A DNA stretch of 33,053 bases, taken from assembly GCF_000313565.1 (NCBI RefSeq), contig NZ_HE578927.1, positions 1-33,053 on the forward strand, written 5' to 3'. The position numbers and the translations under genes were made by a program. The notes under the pieces were generated by a model that saw only the letters and a list, made by a program, of their open reading frames with translations, had not been told where the DNA came from and did no database searches. The DNA is from Dielma fastidiosa (GTDB lineage Bacteria; Bacillota_I; Bacilli_A; Erysipelotrichales; Erysipelotrichaceae). Positions 3,103-13,005 of the stretch are shown one piece after another. How positions within the stretch are numbered: the stretch's first letter is position 1; each line of letters opens with the position of its first letter.

Positions 3103-5469
3103 TTACTGCTGATGATTCATTTCCGCAAATTCGCGGATTTTCCATGCATTGCCGATCTTCTCGAAGCCATCTTCTTTTACTACCACCAAGGTTGGTACCT
3201 GCATAATACCATACTGTCTTGCCAATGCCTCCTGCTCCTCAGCATCAACCTTCTCATAGCTCAGCTTTGATTGTTCCAATGACTGATAAGCAGCCTTACA
3301 GTTCGGACAAGTCTTAGTCGTAAACAGCAGCAGCTTGCCTTCCGCTTTTTCACATGGCGTCTGAACATCACTCAATGCCTGTTTCCCCTTTAACACAGAG
3401 TGACCGATATCATATACCTTACGTTCGCTGAATTCCTGTGTCTTGCCCTCATTCCAGTTTTGTACCGGCCGGTAATATCCGGTAATACGGCTGTAAACCT
3501 CCGTCTTTTCACCGCAGTGCGGACATTCATAAACCTCACCGCTGATATAGCCGTGATTGCGGCAGATTGAATAAGTTGGCGAAATAGTATAATAAGGCAG
3601 TTTATAATTCTCTGAAATCTTGCGCACCAAGGCCGCCGCAGCCTTCCAATCCGGCAGCTTTTCACCTAGGAACGCATGGAAAACAGTGCCTGATGTATAC
3701 AGTGTCTGCAGCTCGTCCTGAATATCCAGCGCTTCAAAAATATCCTCTGTATAACCAACCGGCAGATGTGAGCTATTGGTATAATAAGGCTTCGCGTCAT
3801 TTTCAGTAGCCGTGATAATATCCGGATATAATTCTTTATCATGCTTCGCTAAACGATACGTTGTTGATTCTGCCGGTGTTGCCTCAAGGTTGTATAAATC
3901 GCCGTATTCTTCCTGATAAATAACCAGACGCTCACGCATGTGATTTAAAACCTCCTGCGCAAATTTCTGTGTCTTCGGATGGGTTAAATCCGCACGCAGC
4001 CAGTTCGCATTTAAGCCCACCTCATTCATGCCGATTAAACCGATCGTCGAGAAATGGTTCTCAAAGCTTCCCAAATAGCGCTTCGTATACGGATATAAGC
4101 CTTCATTCAGCAATTTGGTAATGATTGTACGCTTTACGCTCAGTGAGCGGGCGGCAATATCCATCAAATGATCCAAACGTTTATAGAAATCATTTTCATC
4201 CTTAGCCAGATAAGCGATACGCGGCATATTGATCGTTACCACACCGACAGAACCGGTACTTTCACCGCTGCCGAAGAAGCCGCCGGATTTACGGCGCAGT
4301 TCTCTTAAATCAAGACGCAGACGGCAGCACATACTGCGCACATCGCTTGGTTCCATATCACTGTTTACATAATTGGAGAAATAAGGTGTCCCGTATTTTG
4401 ATGTCATTTCAAATAACAGCTTGTTGTTTTCTGTCTCTGACCAGTCAAAATCACGAGTGATTGAATAAGTTGGAATCGGATATTGGAAGCCGCGGCCATT
4501 CGCATCACCCTCAATCATGATTTCAATGAATGCCTTATTAATCATATCCATTTCTTTCTGACAATCTTTATATTTAAAATCCATTTCCTTGCCGCCGATC
4601 AAGGCTTGCTGTTCAGCAAGATCCTTTGGTACTGTCCAGTCCAAGGTAATATTAGAGAATGGTGCCTGAGTTCCCCAGCGGCTTGGTGTATTTACCCCAT
4701 AAACAAATGATTCAATACATTTCTTTACATTCTCATAGCTCAAATCATCAACTTTTACATACGGTGCTAAATAAGTATCAAAGGATGAGAAAGCCTGTGC
4801 GCCTGCCCATTCATTCTGCATAATGCCCAAAAAATTAACCATCTGATTGCATAAGGAAGCCAGATGTCTTGCCGGCTTTGATGTGATTTTACCGGTAACG
4901 CCGCCCAGTCCTTCACAGATCAATTGACGCAGTGACCAGCCTGCGCAGTAGCCTGTCAGCATCGATAAATCATGGAGATGCATCTCACCGCTGCGATGCG
5001 CATTGGCAATCTCCTCATCATAGATTTCTGAAAGCCAATAGTTAGCGGTAATCGCGCCGGAATTGCTTAAGATCAAACCGCCGACGGAATAAGTGACCGT
5101 TGAATTTTCCTTAACCCGCCAGTCTGAAACCTTCACATAGCTGTCTACTAATTCCTTATAGTCAAGAATCGTTGATTTCATGTTGCGGATTTTCTGACGC
5201 TGTTTACGATAAAGAATATAAGCCTTTGCTACATCGGCATAACCCGCCTGAATCAAAACCGCCTCAACGCTGTCCTGAATCGCTTCTACCTGAATCTTAT
5301 CATCAACGATCTTATCTTCAAAATCGGCCGCTACATGCAGTGCCAGCATTTCGATGACACTTGGATGATACTGTTTTTTCTGTGCGTCAAACGCCTTTGT
5401 GATGGCAGCACAAATCTTCTTTAAATCAAACTCCGCAATACTGCCGTCCCTCTTAATTACCTGATACAT
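3103..5469 (-). CDS. nrdD: Class III (anaerobic) ribonucleotide reductase with fused redoxin domain
   Basis: This oxygen-sensitive glycyl-radical enzyme makes deoxyribonucleotides for DNA synthesis without oxygen. Order of parts in 788 residues: ATP-cone at about 1-90; catalytic barrel with cysteines C175 (GYCAGW) and C381/C382; zinc site C636-x2-H639 and C649-x2-C652; glycyl-radical motif RITGYY with G664; then a C-terminal glutaredoxin/thioredoxin-like domain (711-788) with active site C721-P-N-C724. The fused redoxin suggests reduction by a thiol system rather than formate, as known for redoxin-dependent NrdD subgroups. I start it at ATG 5469 (MYQVIKRDG), because the longer open frame upstream overlaps the preceding gene and lacks the family sequence. 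It follows the nrdG fusion gene by 25 bp in one operon. Confidence 0.95.
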   Translation of the reverse strand: MYQVIKRDGSIAEFDLKKICAAITKAFDAQKKQYHPSVIEMLALHVAADFEDKIVDDKIQVEAIQDSVEAVLIQAGYADVAKAYILYRKQRQKIRNMKSTILDYKELVDSYVKVSDWRVKENSTVTYSVGGLILSNSGAITANYWLSEIYDEEIANAHRSGEMHLHDLSMLTGYCAGWSLRQLICEGLGGVTGKITSKPARHLASLCNQMVNFLGIMQNEWAGAQAFSSFDTYLAPYVKVDDLSYENVKKCIESFVYGVNTPSRWGTQAPFSNITLDWTVPKDLAEQQALIGGKEMDFKYKDCQKEMDMINKAFIEIMIEGDANGRGFQYPIPTYSITRDFDWSETENNKLLFEMTSKYGTPYFSNYVNSDMEPSDVRSMCCRLRLDLRELRRKSGGFFGSGESTGSVGVVTINMPRIAYLAKDENDFYKRLDHLMDIAARSLSVKRTIITKLLNEGLYPYTKRYLGSFENHFSTIGLIGMNEVGLNANWLRADLTHPKTQKFAQEVLNHMRERLVIYQEEYGDLYNLEATPAESTTYRLAKHDKELYPDIITATENDAKPYYTNSSHLPVGYTEDIFEALDIQDELQTLYTSGTVFHAFLGEKLPDWKAAAALVRKISENYKLPYYTISPTYSICRNHGYISGEVYECPHCGEKTEVYSRITGYYRPVQNWNEGKTQEFSERKVYDIGHSVLKGKQALSDVQTPCEKAEGKLLLFTTKTCPNCKAAYQSLEQSKLSYEKVDAEEQEALARQYGIMQVPTLVVVKEDGFEKIGNAWKIREFAEMNHQQ

Positions 5470-5494
5470 AGTTATTTCCCTTTCCTTTCCGCTT

Positions 5495-6628
5495 CTATAA
5501 CCCACGCACCTGCGTGTTAGGTACAAATTTTCTGGCTGCTTCACACAGCTTCTGCATTTCATCAGCATCATATCCCTGCAAACCCTTTTGAATGACGCAT
5601 TCACTGTCTACAAAGGCTTGCAGATAATACGCTTTAGCGCCCTTCAGCCATTCTGCCGCGGCGCTGATTTCCTTTTCACTGTGAAAATCCCTGACCACCG
5701 TAGTTCTGAATTCATAATCAAGATCACCGTGAAGCAAAAAGTCAACGCTTTCCTCAATCGGTGATAAATCAAAGCTTTCAAGACCAATCGTCTTCGCGTA
5801 ATGAGCTTTGTCATTTTTTATATCCATCGCAACATAGTCAATTAAGCCAGCCGCTGCATATTTCTTTAAAAGCTTAGGATAGCTCCCGTTGGTGTCTAAT
5901 TTAACCTTATATCCTAACCCCTTCAATTTATATAAGAAAGGCTCCAGCTCTTCATGCAGCAACGGCTCGCCGCCGCTGATACAGATGCCGTCCAACGTTT
6001 TCTGCCGCTGTTTCAAAAAGCTTTCTAAATCATCACTGTTGATTTCAGAAAGATCCTCCGGCAGAAAAACCAGATCCGCGTTCTGACAGAAAGGACAGCG
6101 GAAGTTGCAGCCGCCGGTAAACAGCGTTGATGCCAGCTTAGAGGGATAATCCAATAAGGTAAGCTTCTGCATGCCGAAGATTTTCAGCTGATTGGTTGGC
6201 TGAGTGAGAGCCGACGCGTTGGCAATCAGCTTTGCCTGTACGTTCTCTGCCAGCTGCAGCTCTTCTTCACTTAAGCCTTGGGTTATTTTCTCCCACCATT
6301 CCTGACGAACGAGATAGATTTCCGGAATGATTTTCTTCGTCTTATCACACGTATATAAATGTTTAATGCGCTTATCTTTTTCATTTGCCGCGGTTGTGAT
6401 ATAGCCTTCCGCCTCTAAGCGCTGAATGCCCTTGGTAACCGTTCCTTTATCAAAGCCGCCCATCAAAGACAGATCAGACATTGTAATGCCTTCATGTTCA
6501 TAAATCAGAATCAAAAACTGAAGCTGACCGGCGCCAATTTGATAGAGATCTAAATTTTTATCATAATATTTCTGTGTATACCGATATAAAATCGAGGTAT
6601 TCATCAGCAGACTATTGCGTTTTTCCAT
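5495..6628 (-). CDS. MarR-type regulator fused to NrdG-type radical SAM activase
   Basis: The 377 residues hold two proteins in one. Residues 1 to about 140 form a MarR-family winged helix (recognition region about 50-75; wing with the conserved DxR, D85-x-R87). Residues about 150-377 match the NrdG2-type activase, with the opening QKLTLLDYPSKLASTLFTGG, the radical SAM cluster C174-x3-C178-x2-C181 and the GGE motif at 219-221. The activase half should use a 4Fe-4S cluster and S-adenosylmethionine to put the glycyl radical on NrdD, encoded 25 bp downstream. The DNA-binding half plausibly controls its own operon, since two MarR-like operators flank the promoter. Codons are open throughout, with no frameshift at the joint. 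Start ATG 6628 has GGAGG four bases upstream. Confidence 0.9.
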   Translation of the reverse strand: MEKRNSLLMNTSILYRYTQKYYDKNLDLYQIGAGQLQFLILIYEHEGITMSDLSLMGGFDKGTVTKGIQRLEAEGYITTAANEKDKRIKHLYTCDKTKKIIPEIYLVRQEWWEKITQGLSEEELQLAENVQAKLIANASALTQPTNQLKIFGMQKLTLLDYPSKLASTLFTGGCNFRCPFCQNADLVFLPEDLSEINSDDLESFLKQRQKTLDGICISGGEPLLHEELEPFLYKLKGLGYKVKLDTNGSYPKLLKKYAAAGLIDYVAMDIKNDKAHYAKTIGLESFDLSPIEESVDFLLHGDLDYEFRTTVVRDFHSEKEISAAAEWLKGAKAYYLQAFVDSECVIQKGLQGYDADEMQKLCEAARKFVPNTQVRGL

Positions 6629-6645
6629 ACAGCCTCCAAAAATGG

Positions 6646-6657
6646 TTGGATATTCAA
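6646..6657. promoter_or_regulatory. Candidate MarR operator O2, at the transcription start
   Basis: Read on the minus strand this is TTGAATATCCAA, an imperfect palindrome closely related to O1. It lies just downstream of the -10 box, around the expected transcription start, where binding would block initiation. Confidence 0.55.
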
Positions 6658-6665
6658 CTAGATTT

Positions 6666-6694
6666 ATAATAGCACCAACCTATTGAACTTTCAA
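6666..6694 (-). promoter_or_regulatory. Promoter of the marR-nrdG/nrdD operon
   Basis: On the minus strand, -35 TTGAAA (6689-6694), exactly 17 nt, then -10 TATTAT (6666-6671). Close to sigma-A consensus, about 40 bp upstream of the start codon. Confidence 0.8.
6683..6694. promoter_or_regulatory. Candidate MarR operator O1, over the -35 box
   Basis: TTGAA-CT-TTCAA is a perfect inverted repeat covering the whole -35 hexamer. The arm sequence and 12-bp size are typical of MarR-family operators. A related site (O2) lies one promoter length downstream. Confidence 0.6.
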
Positions 6695-6756
6695 CCAATC
6701 GAATTAATGATATGAAATGAAAAAAACCGGCTTTTTCTTTCACATTTTCAACACAT

Positions 6757-6801
6757 AAAAAAAGCTGGAGTTACTGCGTTAAACACAATACTCACAGCTT
6801 T
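6757..6801 (-). terminator. Terminator of the lipoprotein/kinase/GntR operon
   Basis: On the minus strand, an AAAGCTGTGAGT...ACTCCAGCTTT stem with one mismatch and an 18-nt loop is followed by seven U residues (plus-strand A-run 6757-6763). It lies just past the GntR stop codon. Confidence 0.8.
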
Positions 6802-6810
6802 CTGATAAAA

Positions 6811-8262
6811 TTATTGCCACAGCTTTGCGGCATCATAGTAATTCATAGCCGCCTCTAAATAATTGAGCTGGCTGCATTCCCGAATAATCTGCAGATGAAT
6901 CAACTGAAATAAATGAGCGGTTTGAACCGCAAATTGATCCCGTTCTCCTTTTTCCAACGCTGCTGACGCTTTCATACACAGCTTGTAGATTTCATACTCA
7001 GGCTGGCTTTTTTCTTTGCTGATAAAGCCCGGTAAACGTCTGCCGACAATGAAATTCTTACGAATCATCACATAGATCGTCTTCAGTGTTTCATATTGAA
7101 TATGATCGATAATAAATTGCAGCAGAATACCCGCGATAAAACGGTGATCAAAGGGATCATGCCAGGCTGTCTCCAATTCCCTCTGCAGCTTTAAACAATC
7201 GTCTGGCAGCACTGCTGAAACCACCGAAGCTGCCACCCCTTCTACACTCAGCGCCAGTAATTCTAAGCTGTCTAACAGCAGGCGGATATTGCCGGCAATT
7301 AATTCCGGTTTAATGGGGGCCTGTTTCAGTTCATCCAGATCCATCATCACTTCAATTCCTGAATGCGGGGCTGCCTTTAGTGCGCCTAAGACCTGCAGCT
7401 CTTTGATTGCCTTAAGTGTCGTATCGATACTGACCCCATAGATGCTCTGAAGCTCCTTATGTGAAGGCAGGCGGCTGCCCTTTGGATATTGTCCAATGGC
7501 AATTCGACCTAAAATATCGACGCAAATACTTGAATACCGTTCTTCGCTTTTGCGCACCTTCTGTTCCAAATCCGCGCAGCCGACACAAAAAATAGAATCC
7601 GGCTTTACTTGATAAGGTGGTACCTCAGCATCGTTATCCAAGCCGTAAACAGCAGACATATCATCAAATTTAACACTGGCCGGATCACCGCCGTTTTTGA
7701 CCGTTTTTAAGAACAGCGTTAACTGCCGGCGATAAGTTTCACGAATGGCAGCATCACTGTGCAGCGATTCCAGCTCTGAAAAGCCTAAGCTGTCAACAAC
7801 TCTCAGCATCAGCTCATTGCCGTTGCGGGCAATCAGATAACGCCAAAATTGATTAGACAGCTGCCAAAAACGCTCTTTTGAAACCGTCTCCATACTTACA
7901 ATGATGGTCCTTAAATACGCCCAGTCCGCATCCTGACATAGCTTTAGACCCTGATCAATCAACGGATAACAAAGCAGTACCCCTGTCCGTAAAGCGTCCA
8001 CAGCCGCGATAGCATCTGCCTGCTTTAAAGCCAGCTGCGATGTTTTCTGCATTGACTGATAGATGATGATCGGCCGTTTGCGCTTCTGAGTCGCGATCAG
8101 ACCTTCCTGAGCTAAAAGTTCCAGGGAACGCCGCACCGTCTTTTCAGAAGTGTTGAATTCCTCACACAGCTTAGCTCTTGAGGGCAGCTGACTGCCCGCC
8201 GGCAAGATACCGCAGATTATTTTATTTTTCAAATTCACATAAACCTTTTCATACAAGATCAT
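6811..8262 (-). CDS. Tandem GntR-like regulator (two winged-helix halves)
   Basis: The 483 residues look like two GntR-type proteins joined end to end. The first winged helix is at 3-68 (SQLPSRAKLCEEFNTSEKTV...LLAQEGLI) and the second at about 243-307 (SRLPSHKELQSIYGVSIDTT...LQVLGALK). Each is followed by roughly 165 residues of helical sequence that I cannot assign firmly; FCD-like is possible. One chain would therefore carry two DNA-binding heads. It is the last gene of a three-gene unit, starting 28 bp after the hybrid kinase stop. GAGGG lies about ten bases before ATG 8262. No receiver domain is present, so control by the upstream kinase would have to be indirect. Target and ligand are unknown. 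Confidence 0.85.
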   Translation of the reverse strand: MILYEKVYVNLKNKIICGILPAGSQLPSRAKLCEEFNTSEKTVRRSLELLAQEGLIATQKRKRPIIIYQSMQKTSQLALKQADAIAAVDALRTGVLLCYPLIDQGLKLCQDADWAYLRTIIVSMETVSKERFWQLSNQFWRYLIARNGNELMLRVVDSLGFSELESLHSDAAIRETYRRQLTLFLKTVKNGGDPASVKFDDMSAVYGLDNDAEVPPYQVKPDSIFCVGCADLEQKVRKSEERYSSICVDILGRIAIGQYPKGSRLPSHKELQSIYGVSIDTTLKAIKELQVLGALKAAPHSGIEVMMDLDELKQAPIKPELIAGNIRLLLDSLELLALSVEGVAASVVSAVLPDDCLKLQRELETAWHDPFDHRFIAGILLQFIIDHIQYETLKTIYVMIRKNFIVGRRLPGFISKEKSQPEYEIYKLCMKASAALEKGERDQFAVQTAHLFQLIHLQIIRECSQLNYLEAAMNYYDAAKLWQ

Positions 8263-8290
8263 TTGTCATAAACCCTCAGCTTTAAGAATA

Positions 8291-10825
8291 TTAGTGCCGA
8301 TGTTTTTGAACTTGCCCATACTGAGTGCAGATATCAGCTAATACAAAAGGCTTGCCGATATGCGCATCCATGCCGCAGTCCAAACATTTTTGAATATCCT
8401 CCTGGAAAGAATTAGCCGTCATCGCAATAATGATTACCTGTCCTGCATCGTGCCGATCTAACGCGCGAATCACTTCGGTTGCACTGCAGCCATCCATGAT
8501 CGGCATCTGAACATCCATCAGAATCAGATCATAATAACCCTCTTCTGATGCGGTAAAGCGTTCAACAGCGATCTGCCCGTTAGTCGCTGTATCAATAACC
8601 GCTCCTGCAAACCTCAGCAGTTCAACTGCAATTTCAAGATTAATTTCATTATCTTCAACAATCAAAACACGCTTACCGCTTAATATTGAGGCTGTCTCAC
8701 TGTCATCGGCTGGCTGAGCATCGGCTTGACCATCATCCAACAGCTGCACGATATCCTTAGTAAAAGCCGGCAAGAAAAGCACCTTGGCTATTTTTAATGC
8801 TGAAGCTCTGGCTTCCAATTCATCCTTATCATATCCCATTAAGATTAATTCAGGCATTCTTATTCTATCACTGTCATAAAGTAACTGCAACTTTTGCGTA
8901 AACTCATTGCTTTCTGCCAAGGATACAAAACACGCATCAACCGACGCCGCAGTATTGCAAAGCGCTAATGCCTGTTCGGCGGTTTTGGTTGCTACAGCTT
9001 CAAAGCCTAAGTGATGCAGCAGATCCGCGAGCGCTTGGCGCTGCGGCTGATAATCGTCTATGACTAAAACACGGCCGCTGAATGGCTGAGCCTGTTCCTC
9101 ACGCTCATAAGCAAACGGCAGATTAACCTTGAAGCAGCTTCCCTTGCCAACCTCACTATCTAAGGTGATGGTACCGCCCATCATCTGCACAAATTGCTTG
9201 GTAATCGGCAGACCTAAGCCAGTTCCCCCATACTGACGGGCAACGCCTGAGGTTTCCTGAATAAAGGCTTCAAAGATTTTATCAAAATTTTCCCTGGCGA
9301 TGCCGCAGCCTGTATCGCTGACCTTAAAAGTCAGCCAAAGACGATCATCATCACTTAATGACGTTTCAATACTTAAAACGATCGTACCGCCGGTCGGTGT
9401 GAATTTCAATGCGTTAGAAAGCAGATTATTTAAAATTTGATTCAGTCGCAAGGAATCTCCAATCAGCACTTCATTGACTGCCTGCGCGCAATAAGCATTA
9501 AAATGTATACCCTTTTCACATGCCTGAATATAGAACACGGTTGTAATTCCCTTCAGTAATTCTCTGAAATTAAACGCCGCCTGATGCAGTTCAATTTTAC
9601 CTCTTTCAATCTTAGACATATCCAAAATATCATTAATTAAAACTAACAGATGATTCGAAGAATAACTGATTTTATCAAGACAGTTTTTCATTCGTTCCGG
9701 CTGATCAATATAACGCTGTCCCACCTCGGTCATACCGATAATGCCGTTCAGCGGAGTACGAATCTCATGCGACATCTGAGAAAGAAAATCACTCTTTGCC
9801 TGATTCGCCTGTTCCGCCCGTTCCTTGGCTTCCATTAATAGCTGCTGATGGCGCTGTTCAATCTGCCGGTAAAGCATGAAAAATACAAAAATAATTATCA
9901 TGACCGTCACAAAAATGCCGGCAGCCGCAAACAGCATCAGAAGACTGAGCCGCGACACCTGCGAATTCACTGTCTCATAAGCCATACTGGTCATCATATA
10001 CCATTCGGTATCAGGAATTGGCGCATAATACAGATATTCATGTTCATCACCCAACCGTAAAGAAAGCATCCCGCTTTGACCGTTCTCAATCTGACTCTGC
10101 AGTGATGTCAGCTCATAGCCAGCATCAAATACTGCCTGCTGCTTAAAGATTGAAAACAGATTGCTGCCGCTTAAGAACGGATTCACATCCTCACCGCGGA
10201 TAATAAAATTACCTTCACGGTTAATTACATTGGTATAAGAATTAGTGCCTTTCTGATTCAGTGCCACCTTCTCACTGATTTTCATTGTATTAATTCCGAC
10301 AATGACGGCCACTAATTGTTCATTTTTATAGGCTTTGGGAACAATCGAAGTCCCCAGCAGAATCACATCATCATCCCAGATCGTTTCATCAATTGAAATA
10401 ATTTCCTTGCTGCCATTCAACAGTTCATTCAGCGCTCTGATTTTAGAAATCGCCGGCTGTGACCCCTGTGGTGTATAAGCCATCCCCTGTGAATTGATCA
10501 CCGCTACATAGGAAAAATCATTATCCGTCTGAATTTGTTTCAAAAACGACTTCAGCGCTTCCTCATCGCTTAATTCACTCATCGACAGCGCATTCGTCAT
10601 TGTCTTGATCTGTGCGAACTGACTTTTCATATTTGTATTAAAATGACTGCTGGTCTGTGAATTCATTTCCTGCAGATAAACCTCACTGATTTTTGACACC
10701 GTTTCCGATGCCGCTTCATTATAAGACTTTAAAGCAAATGAGCAAGCCAACACAATAAAGAGAATCAAAGTACAAATGACAAGAATAATAATCTGCTTCT
10801 CGCCCTTCATCTTATGCTTTTTCAT
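8291..10825 (-). CDS. Hybrid sensor histidine kinase with dCACHE-like sensor and two receiver domains
   Basis: A membrane signal-transduction kinase of 844 residues. Order: transmembrane helix about 10-32; extracytoplasmic sensor of about 250 residues, dCACHE-like; second transmembrane helix 293-317; short linker; HisKA with H353 in [10 protein letters not shown]; HATPase_c with [17 protein letters not shown] and GTGLGL boxes; first receiver about 586-705; second receiver about 718-840 with acidic pair ED and phospho-acceptor D771 (LILMDVQMP). In the first receiver the acceptor position is Ser (CFVSLAES) and the conserved Lys is Leu, so it is probably not phosphorylated. No HPt or output domain is present or encoded nearby. 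It starts 21 bp after the solute-binding lipoprotein gene, AAAGGGGG upstream, which suggests the lipoprotein presents the signal. Confidence 0.93.
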
Positions 10826-10846
10826 ACTATTCCCCCTTTATTTGAC

Positions 10847-12796
10847 TTAATCCGCATTCGCAAGATCAACGATCCTGCCTTCCAGCTCAATGATTTTCTC
10901 CTGTTCAGGATGATCGCGGGAATACTGCTTCACCATTTCCCGATAGCTCATGCCGCTTTCTTTAATCAGTGTCACATCACCCTTTGGGGTGTTTTCATCA
11001 TAGATATTCAGCATCGTATAGCCATCGCCGTTGCCCTCAAAATAACCGACCGCACCTGCCATATAATTATTTACCGCCAGCTGATAGTTCGCCTTTAAAT
11101 CAATCGGTGTACCATCCGGCAGGGAAACTGATACCATTCGGCTGCCCCGTGGTTTAGAGCTGTCAAACACATAATGCAGACCAGAAATCTGCAGGAAACG
11201 GCCATTAGGAAATTCATCATCACTATAGGTTACGCAGTTCTCCAGCATATCCCATATTGTTTGACCCGATGCTTCAATTACGATGACCTCATTTTCAAAC
11301 GGAAACAGCGCTTCTAAATCTTCGCAATATACATCACCGATATAGAGGCTGCTGCGGATATTGCCGCCGTTCACCACCGCAATCGGCGCCGCGGCCACAG
11401 AAGCGATGCAGTCAGCCAAAAAATTGCCAAGTTCGGTTTCGGTGCGCCGTACATTAAAGTTTTGAAACAGCAGATCCTGTTTCATAACGGTAAGCACGGA
11501 TAAATTATCAGCCATCGCCTGTGAACCCTCAAGATAATATTGATCCACCGCCTGCAGCAGCTCCTCATTCGTAAGTCTGCCAGCCATCCGCTGCTGAGCC
11601 GTGCTGCCCAGATACTGGACAACTCTTTCCGGAAAATTCAAATTATAAACATAACCGGAATCAATAAACGTTTCTACACCATTAGGAACCGATGTTTCAT
11701 TCGCAACATAACCACGCAGACTGGAAGCCCCCATCTGCAGATCCTTAATGATGGCATCCTGACCTTCCTGAGTAGATATCAGCGCTAAGATTCGCTTGCA
11801 TGCTTCCTGCTTTTCCTCGCTGATTGATGCATTGATGCCGACATAGCTTGACGGTGCATAAAGAATCCAAGATTCATTTCCCTCATCACTCATTAACGGC
11901 AGCATGCGGTATGAATACTGCATCGCTTTGCCTTCTTCAAAGGCTATTTGATTTTCACTCACACACTGCGCAAAAAGACTGGAATCGCCAAAAACGGCCG
12001 CCAGATTTCCCGACGCCATCCGCTCATGGGTAAGAATGCTGTTGCGCTGCTTGCTTAATGGCGCCGCATCTAAAACACCGCTGGCTACCAGCTCATCCGT
12101 CAAATCAAAGACATTATCCCAAACACCCGTTAAACGGCTGTTTTTCTCTTTGTAATCAGAAAGCCATTGAACACCCTCAACCGTACCTAAAAAATCAGGC
12201 ACCTCACCGCCGATTAAAAACAAGCCAAAATAAGTATTATAATCACTTTGAATGGCTATATTCTTATCATCATCTCCAAGACCATAGCCTTGCTGCTTTA
12301 ACTGAACAAGGGCTTCAATCAATGATTGATTGCTGTTAGGCAATTCAATGCCCGCCTGTTCAAACAAAGTCTCATTAATGATATAGCCATAATACTGCCC
12401 CGGCAGCGGCAGCTGATAATTTTTTCCTTCTACACGCAGACCCTTCATAATCGTACCATCATAGGCAGCGCTGGCGCTCAAATCGCTGATGTCAATAAGA
12501 TATTGACTGTTATCATCGGTATAAGCTTCTTTTGAGAGCACTAAATCAGGGCCATAGCCATTTTCTAAACGCCGTGATAATTCGCTTGTATACGGTGTGA
12601 TCTCACATTGCAGATCAATATCTGAATACGTTGATTCCACAAGCTCTTCCAATTGCGGAAATTTATTAGTATAAAGCACCGTTATGACGATTTTATCTGA
12701 TTTCTCCACAGTCTTTTGCTGACAGCCGCCAACCAGACAAAAACATAATAAAACCGCCAGCCCCTTCAAACATCTGTATCGATTTGATTCACGCAT
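10847..12796 (-). CDS. Lipoprotein: solute-binding domain fused to 5'-nucleotidase C-terminal domain
   Basis: A 649-residue exported lipoprotein: hydrophobic signal and lipobox VGGC with lipidated C25. Residues about 35-420 resemble an ABC family-1 solute-binding protein. Residues about 445-600 match the C-terminal domain of UshA-type 5'-nucleotidases: RRTETELGNFLAD, N475-GGNIRSS, the FPFENEV segment near 496, and GNGDGY near 590. In UshA this domain binds the nucleotide base between aromatic residues; the FPF phenylalanine and a Tyr near 575 could serve here. The catalytic metallophosphoesterase domain is absent, so binding rather than hydrolysis is expected. Start ATG 12796 is set by AAGGAGG eight bases upstream; an upstream in-frame GTG (12814) lies before that site. 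First gene of the unit, followed by the hybrid kinase. Confidence 0.9.
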   Translation of the reverse strand: MRESNRYRCLKGLAVLLCFCLVGGCQQKTVEKSDKIVITVLYTNKFPQLEELVESTYSDIDLQCEITPYTSELSRRLENGYGPDLVLSKEAYTDDNSQYLIDISDLSASAAYDGTIMKGLRVEGKNYQLPLPGQYYGYIINETLFEQAGIELPNSNQSLIEALVQLKQQGYGLGDDDKNIAIQSDYNTYFGLFLIGGEVPDFLGTVEGVQWLSDYKEKNSRLTGVWDNVFDLTDELVASGVLDAAPLSKQRNSILTHERMASGNLAAVFGDSSLFAQCVSENQIAFEEGKAMQYSYRMLPLMSDEGNESWILYAPSSYVGINASISEEKQEACKRILALISTQEGQDAIIKDLQMGASSLRGYVANETSVPNGVETFIDSGYVYNLNFPERVVQYLGSTAQQRMAGRLTNEELLQAVDQYYLEGSQAMADNLSVLTVMKQDLLFQNFNVRRTETELGNFLADCIASVAAAPIAVVNGGNIRSSLYIGDVYCEDLEALFPFENEVIVIEASGQTIWDMLENCVTYSDDEFPNGRFLQISGLHYVFDSSKPRGSRMVSVSLPDGTPIDLKANYQLAVNNYMAGAVGYFEGNGDGYTMLNIYDENTPKGDVTLIKESGMSYREMVKQYSRDHPEQEKIIELEGRIVDLANAD

Positions 12797-12809
12797 CTTG
12801 TTTTCCTCC

Positions 12810-12840
12810 TTCACTGCTTTTAAAGCAGCCAGGCAGTGAA
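12810..12840 (-). promoter_or_regulatory. Leader hairpins touching the ribosome site
   Basis: In the 5' leader, an 8-bp stem (TTCACTGC/GCAGTGAA) ends immediately before GGAGG of the lipoprotein gene. A second, mutually exclusive hairpin (CTGCTTT-T-AAAGCAG, 12814-12828) lies inside it. The alternative folds next to the Shine-Dalgarno could affect translation; this is inference. Confidence 0.45.
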
Positions 12841-12911
12841 ACAGGTACCGCTGGCGTAGGCTGTCAAAAGCATTAAATTTGATTAAAATTCTTGGTACTA
12901 ATGCCAGTTAA

Positions 12912-12940
12912 AGTATATCATCATAATTTATGGAAAGCAA
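12912..12940 (-). promoter_or_regulatory. Promoter of the lipoprotein/kinase/GntR operon
   Basis: On the minus strand, -35 TTGCTT (12935-12940), 17 nt, and -10 TATACT (12912-12917) with an extended TGA before it. The leader is about 110 nt. Confidence 0.75.
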
Positions 12941-12947
12941 TTGCTTT
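12934..12947. promoter_or_regulatory. Palindromic operator candidate over the -35 box
   Basis: AAAGCAATTGCTTT is a perfect 14-bp palindrome that contains the -35 hexamer. It is a natural binding site for a dimeric repressor; the tandem GntR protein of the same operon is one candidate. Confidence 0.5.
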
Positions 12948-12965: not shown

Positions 12966-12997
12966 GAAAAAAACCTTCTCATTAAAATGAAAAGGTT
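12966..12997 (-). terminator. Terminator after murD, end of the dcw cluster
   Basis: A stem of AACCTT-C-TCATT with AATGA-A-AAGGTT (one mismatch, 2-nt loop) is followed on the minus strand by a run of eight U. Confidence 0.85.
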
Positions 12998-13005
12998 CAA
13001 TTAGT

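Follow-up and report, generated by a model that had tools for sequence, protein, structure and literature searches.

The closest described systems pair a solute-binding protein (SBP) with a sensor kinase. CuaDSR of Ruminiclostridium cellulolyticum comprises an SBP lipoprotein, a sensor kinase, and a response regulator, the lipoprotein being encoded in the operon and dedicated to the kinase (PMC10384115). In the xylose sensor XylFII-LytS, the structure of which is cited in that paper, an extracellular complex of SBP and kinase acts as the switch, and the genes for the Pseudomonas aeruginosa kinases AgtS and AruS lie near an SBP gene (PMC11113362). Apart from the response regulator, these traits recur, the switching complex as a proposal, at a locus of Dielma fastidiosa (assembly GCF_000313565.1), found within positions 1-33,053 of contig NZ_HE578927.1; this whole stretch of 33,053 nt is referred to as the window, and all coordinates refer to it unless a related locus is named. 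Three co-directional minus-strand genes, running from 12796 to 6811, encode a lipoprotein that joins an SBP-like region to a 5′-nucleotidase C-terminal domain (SBP-5′NC), a dCache hybrid histidine kinase, and a protein with two GntR units. The lipoprotein-kinase part of this unit is well supported, and the locus as a whole is read, with modest confidence, as a self-contained SBP-dependent sensor operon with cyclic di-GMP (c-di-GMP) as its output and the GntR protein as a local regulator. The genes and their principal domains are as follows.

10847-12796, minus strand: lipoprotein of 649 amino acids with lipobox VGGC (Cys25), SBP-like region at about residues 30-390 and 5′NC domain at 445-585 (Pfam, phmmer, alignments)
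11042-11464, minus strand: 5_nucleotid_C domain, with nucleoside-pocket residues N476, R481, F500, and Y578 kept (Pfam, alignments)
8291-10825, minus strand: hybrid histidine kinase of 844 amino acids, comprising a transmembrane segment, dCache, a second transmembrane segment, HisKA (H353), HATPase_c, a degenerate receiver, and an intact receiver (D771)
8324-8668, minus strand: the C-terminal intact receiver domain (Pfam)
6811-8262, minus strand: tandem GntR regulator of 483 amino acids, comprising a first winged helix-turn-helix (wHTH), a degenerate FCD-like region, a second wHTH, and an FCD-like helical domain

A dCache hybrid kinase gene adjoins the SBP-5′NC gene in 16/16 cases. SBPs usually serve ABC transporters, and the lipoprotein might bind and scavenge substrate on behalf of an unlinked transporter, with the kinase and GntR genes merely sharing its transcript; given this invariable kinase and no transporter as a constant neighbor, such a role is very improbable. 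The order lipoprotein-kinase-GntR is common to the window and five Lachnospiraceae loci (L001, L002, L041, L042, and L043), the first two of which, from Hungatella hathewayi and Blautia schinkii, emerged from a scan of species genomes with lipoproteins of 54% identity. Other loci (L044 to L049/L050) hold the lipoprotein-kinase pair alone, and at L058, L088, L089, and L090 the order is REC-HD-GGDEF, GntR, dCache kinase, lipoprotein, and a second kinase. Protein identity matrices are congruent (r 0.94-0.96), with a Mantel p of 0.0005 for lipoprotein versus kinase; the GntR/kinase value (r 0.94) was set aside as evidence of contact, since co-inheritance alone gives the same figure. An earlier note on this DNA had taken the three genes for one complete signal pathway, an idea it would have given up had homologues never been found together. 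The conserved unit which it supposed is real, as the shared order and the constant kinase neighbor attest, but its placing of the GntR protein at the output end of the kinase is not supported.

The most likely start of the lipoprotein is ATG 12796, which has AAGGAGG in front of it, rather than GTG 12814 further upstream. Its SBP region has no Pfam match in the window protein, yet it matches PDB 3quf of SBP family 1 over residues 64-419 (phmmer, E 4.5e-6), and the relative at L089 exceeds the Pfam cut-off for SBP_bac_8/SBP_bac_1. The 5_nucleotid_C match (E 7e-35) is the sole nucleotidase match at E up to 1 in Pfam, the metallophosphatase (Metallophos) catalytic domain being missing. In CD73 the adenine ring is stacked by F417 and F500, while R395, D506, and N390 hold the ribose and phosphate (PMC7508162, PMC12586806). 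By alignment, N390, R395, F417, F500, and D506 correspond to N476, R481, F500, Y578, and D591 of the lipoprotein, D591 being retained just past the end of the Pfam match, and N476, R481, F/Y500, Y578, and D591 are kept in 12/12 members of the window clade. Because these pocket residues persist without the catalytic half, a nucleoside-type ligand is predicted. The lipoprotein would then be an extracellular ligand receptor in which an SBP domain replaces the catalytic half of a 5′-nucleotidase and the nucleoside-holding half is kept. No paper on 5′NC-SBP sensors was found in the open-licence literature. In the clade of L058, L088, L089, and L090, 4/4 lipoproteins have lost the pocket Asn, Arg, and Asp and keep the company of kinase and GntR; this suggests a changed ligand.

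In the kinase, Pfam matches to HisKA, HATPase_c, and Response_reg are strong and that to dCache_1 (E 1.4e-9) falls below its cut-off; with HisKA, HATPase_c, and receivers in one chain, the protein is a hybrid histidine kinase. Alignment with its L001 and L002 counterparts showed other residues at the phospho-Asp position of the first receiver and an intact second receiver with D771. By analogy with CuaD-CuaS and XylFII-LytS, the ligand-loaded lipoprotein would dock on the dCache domain and switch the kinase, whereupon His353 would donate phosphate to Asp771 for onward transfer to a partner encoded elsewhere. The locus thus resembles an SBP-dependent three-component system in its exported SBP gene beside a sensor kinase gene (16/16) and departs from one in having no output response regulator in the operon; a search of open reading frames (ORFs) and Pfam yielded no cognate response regulator with an output domain anywhere in the window, and the earlier note had rightly reported neither transporter, enzyme, nor output-domain response regulator in the module. 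The genome as a whole has 47 receiver matches, 35 GGDEF matches, and one detectable histidine phosphotransfer (HPt) domain, a 147-amino-acid ORF at L092 (G000:C9:95000-114999) that adjoins a 1202-amino-acid hybrid kinase and a REC-GGDEF multi-domain protein; several other hybrid kinases occur in the genome.

The third protein matches the GntR wHTH profile (PF00392) in two stretches (E 3.8e-24) and the FCD profile (PF07729) nowhere at E up to 1. Its two halves are homologous across 200 columns (99.3%), and in a fold search with a structure model (pLDDT 69) both matched the FCD-type GntRs NanR, McbR, TM0439, and DhdR. Residues 322-466 superimpose on the TM0439 FCD domain, McbR, and DhdR with root-mean-square deviations of 2.5-3.1 over 132-139 residues and Z of about 13-14, values that helical bundles reach by chance and that come from a model of pLDDT 69; the list of matches for this region consists entirely of FCD-type or other GntRs. 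Judged from the model, two diverged FadR-like halves are most likely fused here into a single-chain dimer. As the earlier note had observed, it has no receiver; Pfam matched neither receiver nor HPt in the GntR proteins. An HPt hidden in the helical domains was considered and rejected, as no His occurs among the positions conserved in at least 80% of the family and the matches in the fold search are GntRs.

The wider family was surveyed through 59 distinct tandem-GntR genes, drawn from Lachnospiraceae, the window genome, and a second genome in the family to which the window's belongs, with 20 single-GntR genes of the fetched loci and 292 random genes as controls. The domain models were built from the same loci, gene calling was mechanical, and the genomes are few and related; the window protein led to part of the set, and clustering addresses relatedness only partly. 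A kinase, receiver, GGDEF, EAL, or HD gene lies directly beside 48/59 tandem GntRs compared with 1/20 single GntRs (p 1e-9) and 28/292 random genes, an association kept in 12/19 clusters at 45% identity (p 1.4e-4). The window genome has two further tandem GntRs, each of them next to GGDEF-EAL genes, and GGDEF and GGDEF-EAL genes occur at L081 and L084-L086. Window-clade members lie inside an operon in 15/18 instances, and 25/41 paralogues stand head-to-head with a signaling gene across gaps of mostly 50-350 nt. Divergent placement beside a gene is usual for local transcriptional regulators. In related gut bacteria most members of the family are encoded next to such kinases or to c-di-GMP enzymes, the genes of which they probably control.

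The same neighborhoods bear on whether the tandem GntR could itself be the direct output of the kinase, for instance by FCD-like domains that bind the phosphorylated C-terminal receiver and so complete the pathway without a classical response regulator. Close spacing and co-inheritance of the three genes would suit this, as would the hybrid kinases adjoining 26/59 tandem GntRs (0/292 random genes) and the scarcity of classical relay partners in a genome with several hybrid kinases and one detectable HPt. It is nonetheless quite unlikely, given the lack of receiver, HPt, or conserved His described above, the six lipoprotein-kinase pairs that have no GntR gene, and the tandem GntRs at L051, L151, L152, L156, L158, and L081, which have GGDEF-EAL neighbors but no kinase up to three genes away. 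Because of these last members, fixed phosphotransfer from kinase to GntR is unlikely as the common function of the family, and the divergent paralogues likewise speak against the output role.

A related proposal makes the tandem GntR a c-di-GMP effector: the kinase would alter c-di-GMP through REC-HD-GYP-GGDEF or trans-acting enzymes, and FCD-like domains would bind the nucleotide and change DNA binding. It draws on the c-di-GMP enzyme genes (GGDEF/EAL/HD) that adjoin 25/59 tandem GntRs, compared with 0/20 single GntRs and 2/292 random genes, and on the abundance of GGDEF matches in the window genome. As no binding motif was identified, many members adjoin hybrid kinases only, and no paper combining GntR, c-di-GMP, and the FCD domain was found in the open-licence literature, this too is rather unlikely. 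A broader version, in which tandem GntRs of Lachnospiraceae and relatives are a transcription factor family dedicated to hybrid-kinase/c-di-GMP circuits, directly responsive to c-di-GMP or a phospho-receiver and closing, at this locus, an extracellular nucleoside-sensing pathway with a repurposed nucleotidase-domain receptor, is likewise rather unlikely. Searches of the open-licence literature for tandem or double GntRs gave nothing, those for GntR with hybrid kinase and c-di-GMP gave unrelated papers only, and no description of a link between tandem GntRs, hybrid kinases, and c-di-GMP enzymes was found there.

The transcription unit is delimited by the following signals.

12971-12998, minus strand: intrinsic terminator that ends the murD/dcw transcript upstream and insulates the operon (12-bp stem and T run, z -2.95)
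12912-12940, minus strand: putative promoter read from the sequence, TTGCTT / 17 nt / TATACT, with a weak -35
6759-6803, minus strand: intrinsic terminator closing the operon (minimum free energy -21.5 kcal/mol, z -4.65)

The two terminators flank the genes, and the three therefore form one isolated unit, with gaps of 21 nt (lipoprotein/kinase) and 28 nt (kinase/GntR). These spacings and the gene positions had been given exactly in the earlier note; the end terminator it described is real but falls just outside the range of 6811-12947 that it assigned to the module, and for its single front promoter a candidate exists, though with a weak consensus match (TATACT as -10, 3/6 in the -35, about 120 nt upstream of the lipoprotein ATG) and absent from the output of a consensus promoter scan of the window. 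Just downstream of the putative -10, TGGCATTAGTACCA at 12893-12906 (minus strand) is an imperfect palindrome with TGGYAYT half-sites and a possible GntR operator. In a single ORF beyond the closing terminator, at 5495-6628 (minus strand), a MarR-type DNA-binding domain is combined with a radical-SAM domain resembling NrdG. This regulator-activase fusion, seemingly an unusual one, lies immediately upstream of the gene for anaerobic ribonucleotide reductase (3103-5604) and overlaps it.

For the favored sensor-operon reading, the link between kinase and GntR protein is best seen as a transcriptional one, the GntR protein controlling the operon while phosphate goes elsewhere. The tandem GntR would regulate the sensor operon locally, its own gene included, and answer its own intracellular ligand rather than accept phosphate from the kinase. 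The output is probably the c-di-GMP level, set by a trans-acting enzyme, because the receiver protein co-encoded in related operons (L041, L058, L088-L090) is a REC-HD-GYP-GGDEF enzyme; its HHExxDGxGYP and GGDEF motifs are intact. In H. hathewayi (L001), REC and HD-GGDEF are separate ORFs (5876-6421 and 6548-7915 of that locus), corresponding to one 693-amino-acid protein in L041, which probably reflects a frameshift or split gene. Several observations weigh against this reading. There is no c-di-GMP gene in the window operon, nor in L042 or L043; the GntR gene accompanies 6/12 close SBP-5′NC/kinase pairs, and the pair works without it; neither inverted repeats nor TGGCATTAGTACCA proved common to relatives when a shared operator was sought upstream of 18 clade members; and the divergent geometry of the paralogues supports regulation yet falls short of proof. 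For the receptor, the predicted pocket is interrupted by 7 inserted residues between the second stacking residue and D591, and a lipoprotein model from a three-sequence alignment reached a pLDDT of 33 and was discarded.

In a sample of the Hungatella family, 10/299 genomes are carriers, and in samples of the class (395 genomes, 193 genera) and phylum (392 genomes) a full-length relative was found in the window's genome only. Because the class and phylum samples hold no other, the operon has probably spread horizontally, as far as distribution can tell; its composition shows no anomaly (GC 44% versus 42% elsewhere in the window). At L001 (13999-17039), L002 (14089-17096), and L041 (13392-16510), in the coordinates of those loci, two more genes come after the cassette, one for a second hybrid kinase of 709-733 amino acids and one for a protein of about 300 amino acids whose N terminus carries a hydrophobic stretch and which matches nothing in Pfam; they are conserved as a pair and absent from the window.

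Gut Firmicutes encode many hybrid kinases and c-di-GMP enzymes, and this operon offers a predicted nucleoside-type ligand, a receptor-kinase pair, and a regulator family tied to them by neighborhood, so that both ends of a pathway become testable. Set against known proteins, each tandem GntR half has a wHTH and, judged from the model, may have an all-helical effector domain like that of the FadR-type (FCD) regulators NanR, McbR, DhdR, and TM0439, but two complete, diverged halves share one chain, the FCD Pfam profile is unmatched, and no His is conserved. The lipoprotein shares with the 5′-nucleotidases UshA and CD73 a C-terminal substrate-binding domain with an Asn-Arg-aromatic-aromatic-Asp pocket, from which it differs by an SBP domain in place of the metallophosphatase domain and by the insertion before the pocket Asp. 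XylFII-LytS, as far as the cited text describes it, employs other SBP and kinase families with neither a 5′NC domain nor a GntR protein, and AgtS and AruS are associated with other SBP families, no 5′NC fusion or tandem GntR being reported (PMC11113362). While CuaS and CuaR are a classical kinase and response regulator, the Dielma operon combines an SBP-5′NC fusion with a dCache hybrid kinase and encodes no response regulator. Taken together, these comparisons suggest a known mode of action, like that of CuaD-CuaS, with a new receptor architecture.

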